Source: an uncultured Candidatus Saccharibacteria bacterium
Lineage (GTDB): Bacteria > Patescibacteriota > Saccharimonadia > Saccharimonadales > UBA4665
Length of the DNA: 8,087 nucleotides
Direction of reading: 5' to 3'
NCBI GenBank assembly: GCA_937988795.1
Contig: CALKHY010000199.1
Span: 1 to 8,087, forward strand
Under the pieces are notes generated by a model that was given only the letters and a program-made list of their open reading frames with translations, was not told where the DNA came from and ran no database searches. Shown here piece by piece: positions 6,994-8,087 of this stretch (position 1 is its first letter; each line of letters opens with the position of its first letter). A program made the position numbers and the translations under genes.

Positions 6994-7593
6994 ATGATTA
7001 AACTCGACGACGATCTACTACAAGAACTGGGCTTGGCATCACTTCCGGCCGAAGAAAAGAAGAAGCTTCTCGCACATATCTACGAAACGCTCGAAATGCG
7101 CGTGGGCATGAAACTGGCAGAGCAGATGAGTGACGCCCAGCTCACGGAGTTTGAGCAGTTTATCGACAGGAGTGACGAGGCTGGTGCACTGAAATGGCTC
7201 GAGACCAATTTCCCCAACTACAAAGACGTCGTCGCTCAGGAGTTTGAGAATCTTAAGAAAGAAATTCGCGAAGTAGCGCCGCAGATATTGGCAGCGAGCA
7301 ACCAACAACAGGCCCAGGCACAAGCTCAATCAGATGTTCAGGCAGCAGATGCTGGCGCAGACCCCGTCGGACAGCCTATACAGCCGCAGCAGGCGGGAGT
7401 GACGCAGCCACCTGCATGGCAGGGTGTCAATGACACTATGATGCAGCCGCAGCCACAGATGCCGTCGAGCCAGCCTGCGCAACAGTTTGAGCAGTTCGGC
7501 CAGCCGCAGACTCCCCAGCCCCCCAGTGATCCTTGGGGCGGGCAGGCTGCGTCGCCACCACCACCTCCGCCCCCGCCGCCCGCATTCAATTAG
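6994..7593 (+). CDS. DUF5663-like protein with disordered Q/P-rich tail
   Basis: 199 residues in two parts. Residues 1-98 are charged and predicted helical (L-D-D-D-L-L-Q-E-L-G-L, then L-P-A-E-E-K-K-K-L-L and a third helix near 78-95). They resemble the CPR-enriched family DUF5663, a match made from memory. Residues 99-199 are low complexity: Q/A repeats at about 103-118, then P/Q-rich sequence with W142 and W181, ending in nine consecutive prolines (188-196) and A-F-N. There is no signal peptide or membrane segment, so the protein should be cytoplasmic unless tethered through a partner. Its function is unknown. The layout, an acidic helical head with a flexible sticky tail, suggests a scaffold or interaction protein, which is inference. 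It follows infB by 49 bases with its own putative promoter. Its last 8 bases overlap the 3' end of the convergent fmt gene. Confidence 0.85.
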   Translation: MIKLDDDLLQELGLASLPAEEKKKLLAHIYETLEMRVGMKLAEQMSDAQLTEFEQFIDRSDEAGALKWLETNFPNYKDVVAQEFENLKKEIREVAPQILAASNQQQAQAQAQSDVQAADAGADPVGQPIQPQQAGVTQPPAWQGVNDTMMQPQPQMPSSQPAQQFEQFGQPQTPQPPSDPWGGQAASPPPPPPPPPAFN

Positions 7594-8063
7594 CCTGCAG
7601 TAATTGGTTTTTGTAGCCGGCAAGGAAAGCCTTGCCGGTCATTTCTGGTTTGCCGGCCGGTTTAAGTGCATCAATGCATAGTCTGCCGTCTGTTGTTTCT
7701 ACCATTAAAATGCCGTCGTTAATGACCGATTCTTCTATATCGCCGGGTTTCTTGCCCGGTGTGTTGCCCGGTACGGCATGAGCCTTTGTGATAATTACAT
7801 CTTTGCCGGTCAGCACTGTTCTGCTCTTTGGCCATGCACTAAAAGCGCGGACTTCTCTAGAGAGAACTTCAGCAGATTTTGACCAGTTGATAACTCCGTC
7901 TTGTTTTGTAAGTTTCCTCGAATATGATACGTCGCGACCGGTTACGCTTTGTGGTACGGGCCGAATTTCTCCCTCAATGTATTGGGGAAGTTTGTCACTA
8001 AGCAGGGAGTTGCTAAGCTGAATTAGGTTTTCTGTAAGTGTAATTGTTGTTTCATTTTCATCG
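7586..8063 (-). CDS. fmt: Methionyl-tRNA formyltransferase, C-terminal part (5' end lost at sequence end)
   Basis: About 158 C-terminal residues in an open frame that runs off the right edge. The signature of the Fmt linker and C-terminal OB-like domain is visible: a D-G-V-I-N-W-S-K-S-A-E-V-L segment, R-E-V-R-A-F-S-A-W-P (compare R-A-F-N-P-W-P in E. coli), then P-G-N-T-P-G, D-G-I-L-M-V, and the closing L-K-P-A-G-K-P-E-M-T-G-K-A-F-L-A-G. Fmt formylates the Met on initiator tRNA, the substrate that IF-2 recognises. The N-terminal catalytic domain (Asn, His and Asp of the active site) is missing, because the sequence turns into adapter at 8064. Codons read upstream of 8063 are therefore artificial. 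The TGA stop at 7586-7588 overlaps the convergent upstream gene. A GTG at 7814-7816 is an internal Val, not a start. The gene is probably intact in the genome. Confidence 0.93.
7617..7638. other. Perfect 9-bp hairpin within the 3' coding end of fmt
   Basis: CCGGCAAGG (7617-7625) and CCTTGCCGG (7630-7638) form a perfect stem with an AAAG loop, 24 bases beyond the stop of the convergent DUF5663-like gene. No T-run follows on the plus strand (TCATTTCTGG), so it is not a standard intrinsic terminator. It may still serve as a 3' end stabiliser for the plus-strand mRNA. It encodes a K-A-F-L-A-G segment of Fmt and could be chance. Confidence 0.4.
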
Positions 8064-8087
8064 ATCTCGTATGCCGTCTTCTGCTTG
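8064..8087. other. Illumina P7 adapter sequence (artefact, not genomic)
   Basis: The last 24 bases, starting ATCTCGTATGCC and ending TTCTGCTTG, are the full-length exact reverse complement of the 24-base Illumina P7 flow-cell oligo as I know it. No index or read-2 primer segment lies between it and the genomic sequence. This suggests a mis-primed or chimeric fragment at the end of an assembled contig. Confidence 0.97.

Follow-up and report, generated by a model that had tools for sequence, protein, structure and literature searches.

A full-length Illumina P7 oligo sequence interrupts fmt at the end of a stretch of Saccharibacteria DNA and probably arose by mispriming of a bare P7 primer

The analysed stretch of DNA (8,087 nucleotides, hereafter the window) starts inside a 23S rRNA gene (1-1878, model position 992 onward), also contains a 5S rRNA gene, and closes on a fragment of the methionyl-tRNA formyltransferase gene fmt that is cut off by sequence of almost certainly laboratory origin. 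Four features are distinguished in its last part:

6994..7593, plus strand: DUF5663 gene (PF18908) converging on fmt, a frequent neighbour in relatives (71/80 fmt loci).
7586..8063, minus strand: genuine 3' part of fmt (C-terminal region of the protein; PF02911, 74 homologous proteins, 80 related loci), truncated on its 5' side by the artefact.
8064..8087, minus strand (5' to 3' on that strand): full-length Illumina P7 oligo sequence, a library artefact (24/24 identity, single match, none in shuffles, absent from the 80 fmt loci).
8064..8071, minus strand: 3'-terminal octamer of P7 (TACGAGAT), expected to be common to the adapter and native fmt, and the putative priming site (octamer in register in 3/79 relatives).

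The minus-strand frame 7586-8086 matches PF02911 with an E value of 7.9e-21 and a score of 74.6 bits (cut-off 21.1); the N-terminal catalytic domain of Fmt (PF00551) would be encoded past the window's end. A protein search with this frame, adapter-coded residues included, recovered 74 Fmt homologues that are 39-58% identical to it; among the few that carry a source taxon name, four are assigned to Saccharimonadales or Saccharibacteria. A profile scan of genome contigs yielded 116 confirmed fmt loci, 80 of which were kept, all at most 60% identical to the window in Fmt. Saccharibacteria, Saccharimonadia, or Saccharimonas is named in the records of 59 of these 80 loci, two of which (L181 and L190) come from one isolate record. 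Other genes of the window recur within flanks of up to 6 kb, some of them cut by contig ends: DUF5663 near 71 loci, IF-2 near 65, the S1-domain protein near 56, and the ROK kinase near 40. Since the window's other genes are also found at fmt loci, the fragment up to 8063 is genuine fmt in its usual place, and the gene interrupted by P7 is a real fmt of the Saccharibacteria type. The closest neighbouring proteins among the 80 loci belong to Saccharibacteria YM_S32_TM7_50_20 (L188), with 89% identity for the S1-domain protein, 88% over 99 residues for DUF5663, and 76% for IF-2; its Fmt is only 46% identical to that of the window, whereas other loci reach 60%, and fmt may have evolved fast or been exchanged.

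The terminal 24 bases are the exact reverse complement of CAAGCAGAAGACGGCATACGAGAT, the full-length Illumina P7 oligo. This string is printed in published papers, among them PMC4858895. The match (24/24, 8064-8087) is the only one in the window when both strands are searched with up to three mismatches, and it runs to the last base, 8087. No P7 match occurred in 200 dinucleotide-preserving shuffles of the window, and the composition-weighted chance of the exact 24-mer at one given position is about 2e-15. The first-pass annotation, made from the letters of this DNA, had described these bases as an exact, full-length P7 reverse complement with a negligible probability of chance occurrence, and both statements hold. 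The 24 bases are almost certainly a laboratory leftover, that is, an ordinary artefact.

Up to 8063 the sequence can be read as fmt codons, and it aligns with homologous proteins and loci from the first adapter-free residues onward, so that genomic DNA directly adjoins the 3' end of P7. A search after base 7950 for four stem motifs of TruSeq, Nextera, or index sites found none of them, and six other Illumina oligos (TruSeq, Nextera, and P5) match the window over 9 bases at most. These screens agree with the first-pass remark that no index or primer-site bases precede P7. Standard adapter read-through, whether of TruSeq or Nextera type, would place the read-2 primer site and an index of 6-8 bases ahead of P7; it was ruled out, because there is neither an index nor an adapter stem in that position.

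On the minus strand, translation from 8086 gives KQKTAYEI followed by DENETT..., so that the fmt frame stays open through the 24-mer, as the first reading had stated. Seven codons lie wholly within the 24-mer and one (ATC, 8065-8063) is shared with the sequence next to it. An open frame is what native fmt coding sequence with a coincidental P7 match would also show, and a KQKT motif is native to this region in 9 of the 74 homologous proteins, which makes KQKTAYEI look superficially native. These nine proteins (P0012, P0021, P0023, P0025, P0028, P0048, P0055, P0064, and P0067) carry YKQKT, as in GPLYKQKTAHL (YKQKTAHL in P0021), and by eye they form a separate, sister subfamily. The register was determined by pairwise projection of the 74 homologues onto the window, 8 of them being too short to reach the junction, and columns were tallied over the 50 rows in which the alignment begins no later than the fourth residue. 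In 9/9 proteins, however, KQKT stands one residue nearer the conserved block than it does in the window. Six residues ahead of the first clean one, 47 of 79 relatives have Gln and none has Lys. The best relative agrees with the 24-mer at 13/24 bases at the junction, and no relative exceeds 16/24 within 60 bases of it. Together with the chance figure above and the position of the 24-mer at the very end of the window, these observations reduce the probability of a native coincidence to about nil: it is excluded for practical purposes by the register shift, the residue at -6, the relatives' bases, and the chance figure. The resemblance of native YKQKT to P7-coded KQKTAYEI is a trap for homology-based checks for artefacts. 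The peptide KQKTAYEI itself was not found in the literature searched, a body of text that leaves most subscription papers outside its scope.

None of the 80 related fmt loci carries the P7 24-mer anywhere, nor do any of six genomes of fmt relatives. The first-pass annotation had proposed the presence of this 24-mer at the same place in close relatives as evidence that would overturn its reading; the 24-mer is indeed absent, but the relatives at hand, at most 60% identical in Fmt, are not close ones. The junction could be read in 79 of the 80 loci, L187 being cut before it; in loci whose local alignment started a few residues late, it was projected without gaps over up to 8 residues.

The octamer TACGAGAT, which forms the 3' terminus of P7, lies exactly in register at the junction in three of the 79 readable relatives (L134, L170, and L173), where it encodes Tyr, Glu, and the first bases of an Ile or Met codon; on the gene strand of the window, 8064..8071 likewise makes up codons for Tyr and Glu and the start of Ile. 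Tyr-Glu-Ile is native at the homologous place in L134 and L173. Among the 79 relatives, none of them more than 60% identical in Fmt, the match to the 3' end of P7 at the junction spans 8 bases in three, 6 in one, 5 in one, and 4 or fewer in 74. The 68,439 bases that span positions -400 to +470 of the 79 junctions hold three copies of the octamer, all of them at offset 0. The shorter suffix GAGAT is not special to the junction, with 5 occurrences at offset 0 versus 6 at another column. In L188 the junction reads TACGACCT, which has TACGA in common with P7, but its 3'-terminal run is a single base. Some members of the fmt family thus offer a landing site for the P7 3' end exactly at the junction, as priming by bare P7 needs. 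Since the octamer occurs at the junction in 3/79 relatives and nowhere else in the 68,439 bases, mispriming of the P7 3' end on Tyr-Glu-Ile codons is supported, and the native bases under the primer are likely to have been close to TACGAGAT.

These comparisons modify two details of the first reading. It had suggested that a few bases at the junction are common to genome and adapter, which is likely, but had placed them around 8060-8068; because three of the 79 readable relatives carry exactly this octamer in register, the shared bases more likely occupy 8064-8071. It had also counted about eight false Fmt residues. False residues are indeed present, but their number is likely about five (KQKTA, some 16 bases), since the octamer, found in register in 3/79 relatives, is likely native and Tyr-Glu-Ile may be so as well. 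With a native octamer, only 8072-8087 and five residues (KQKTA) would be false; without one, the false part would comprise the whole 24-mer and as many as eight residues. The last 16-24 bases of the window and the five to eight residues with which the Fmt fragment starts are therefore unreliable, and no biological boundary lies at the window's end. The P7 scar should be trimmed, a cautious trimming point being 8063.

We consider that the 24 bases are almost certainly a sequencing-library artefact, likely due to a bare P7 primer that bound with its 3' end to a P7-like site within fmt and was then elongated, and we give this reading a probability of roughly 0.87. The first-pass annotation had likewise explained the end of the window as a library artefact, probably due to P7 priming on genomic DNA, and our analysis lends support to it, with mispriming rated as likely. 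The priming step could have taken place either on a flow-cell oligo or, with short P7 primers, during library PCR. Extension of the annealed primer would give molecules in which genomic DNA directly abuts P7, and the assembly would come to a dead end at any read that crosses the joint; this last step is proposed as the reason why the contig stops at the last P7 base. P7 might also have been joined without any priming, through ligation, chimera formation, or assembly of a read that had lost its index and stem bases. Adapter contamination at contig ends is documented in one published survey (PMC11536531), 78 of 122 P7 sites among the viral-contig matches listed below are no more than 15 bases away from the end of the stretch that carries them, and priming at the window is deduced from the bases of relatives and not from the window's own native ones. 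Such joining, however, predicts no homology to the 3' end of P7, against which stand the octamer exactly in register in 3/79 fmt relatives and runs of 6-13 contiguous matching bases at all three bare sites that could be compared with close relatives; in addition, some 40 bases of index and stem would presumably have had to be lost cleanly. We regard joining without priming as unlikely, at about one-eighth of the weight given to mispriming.

The comparison of bare sites rests on a scan of viral contigs for P7, which returned at least 120 stretches holding at least 122 P7 sites. Among the 122 sites listed, a script rule assigned 63 to P7 after a TruSeq index, 50 to P7 after a Nextera index (113 indexed sites in total), and 9 to neither category. 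Four of these nine (L072, L092, L097, and L101) are, by eye, altered TruSeq stems, and the remaining five (L006, L014, L049, L065, and L074) are bare, L049 being Klebsiella phage Marfa. A P7-like place was present in 63 phage records, and Marfa and 12 others were examined; two further bare sites were found among the 12, in Vibrio phage D65 and Proteus phage Saba. Exact P7 also occurred in one of 379 genomes from the phylum of a relative (G230, contig C56, 15522-15545), where it is followed by eight A and shows no stem in the 23 bases to the contig end. The total is eight bare sites, three of which (L006, Marfa, and D65) were compared with close relatives; G230 stands outside this comparison, and no close relatives were found for L014, L065, L074, or Proteus phage Saba when they were sought.

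In L006, the undisturbed sequence of its relative L201 matches the 3' end of P7 over 7 contiguous bases. For Marfa, three relatives show matches of 13, 13, and 12 contiguous bases in ungapped comparison and 13 in all three when gaps are allowed in the alignment. For D65, three relatives match 6 contiguous bases of the P7 3' end, with 14 of the first 15 bases identical. Over all positions of both strands, the sites themselves included, matches of 7 or more bases to the P7 3' end number 0/2,012 in L220, 1/4,354 in L204, and 2/22,722 in L201. The three testable sites all agree with 3'-end mispriming, in what is a small sample.

L006 (IMG/VR), Marfa, D65, and Saba resemble the window in that index-less P7 is joined directly to genomic DNA, and in L006, Marfa, and D65, the ones with close relatives, the native bases agree with the 3' end of P7. 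They differ in that their sites are interior and are followed by 8 to 11 A, after which the sequence continues, whereas the scar of the window has no A run and its sequence stops at the last P7 base. Exactly ten A follow P7 at 41 of the 122 viral sites among the matches listed. A possible source of such a run is the spacer of ten T that flow-cell oligos presumably carry, a hint that does not distinguish between the priming steps for the window, whose scar lacks the run; the T10-P7 oligo string was not found in the literature searched, which excludes most subscription papers.

Two published situations bear on the window. Moeller et al. (2024; PMC11536531) report Illumina adapter bases at contig ends of published microbial assemblies, which they interrupt, as the adapter bases of the window do at its own end. 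Their screen targets the TruSeq stem AGATCGGAAGAG, whereas the window carries the outer P7 oligo and no stem, so that its scar would be missed by that screen. In HITS-CLIP libraries (PMC4858895), short stretches of non-adapter sequence that matched an adapter primer allowed its extension, and the resulting molecules had no ligated adapter, which is comparable to what we suppose for P7 here; the difference is that a reverse-transcription primer acted on RNA there, whereas in the window P7 would have acted on DNA and left its scar in an assembly. The available part of PMC3163567 contains nothing on P7 priming of genomic DNA.

With somewhat better than even confidence, we suggest that index-less P7 scars form a distinct and predictable class of assembly errors. 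Bare P7 would prime at places where about 6-13 bases happen to match its 3' end, and the scars would appear both at contig ends and inside 'complete' genomes, unseen by stem-based trimmers and adding adapter-coded residues to real proteins. Such scars would escape adapter-stem screens, and they can sit in genes of records labelled complete, e.g., in the portal-gene region of Marfa. In that genome, labelled complete (MN044033.1, 99162-99196; L203, 1393-1427), P7 is followed by eleven A; no CDS is annotated across the site, a portal CDS is present there in three relatives, and the RefSeq copy (NC_048798.1) also has P7 at this place. P7 lies at one coordinate (30016-30045; L207) in eleven D-series records, Vibrio phage D65 and ten more, inside a gene for a hypothetical protein; in D65 it was read as index-less, and three sister phages used for comparison are without P7 there; a coordinate common to eleven records and missing from the sister phages suggests a shared assembly or reference step. 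Ten other phage genomes (L208-L212 and L214-L218; MK327937, MK327945, MK327946, MK373781, MN106245, LR597651, MH973725, OU343167, LR597652, and PP582185) carry P7 behind a TruSeq or Nextera stem.
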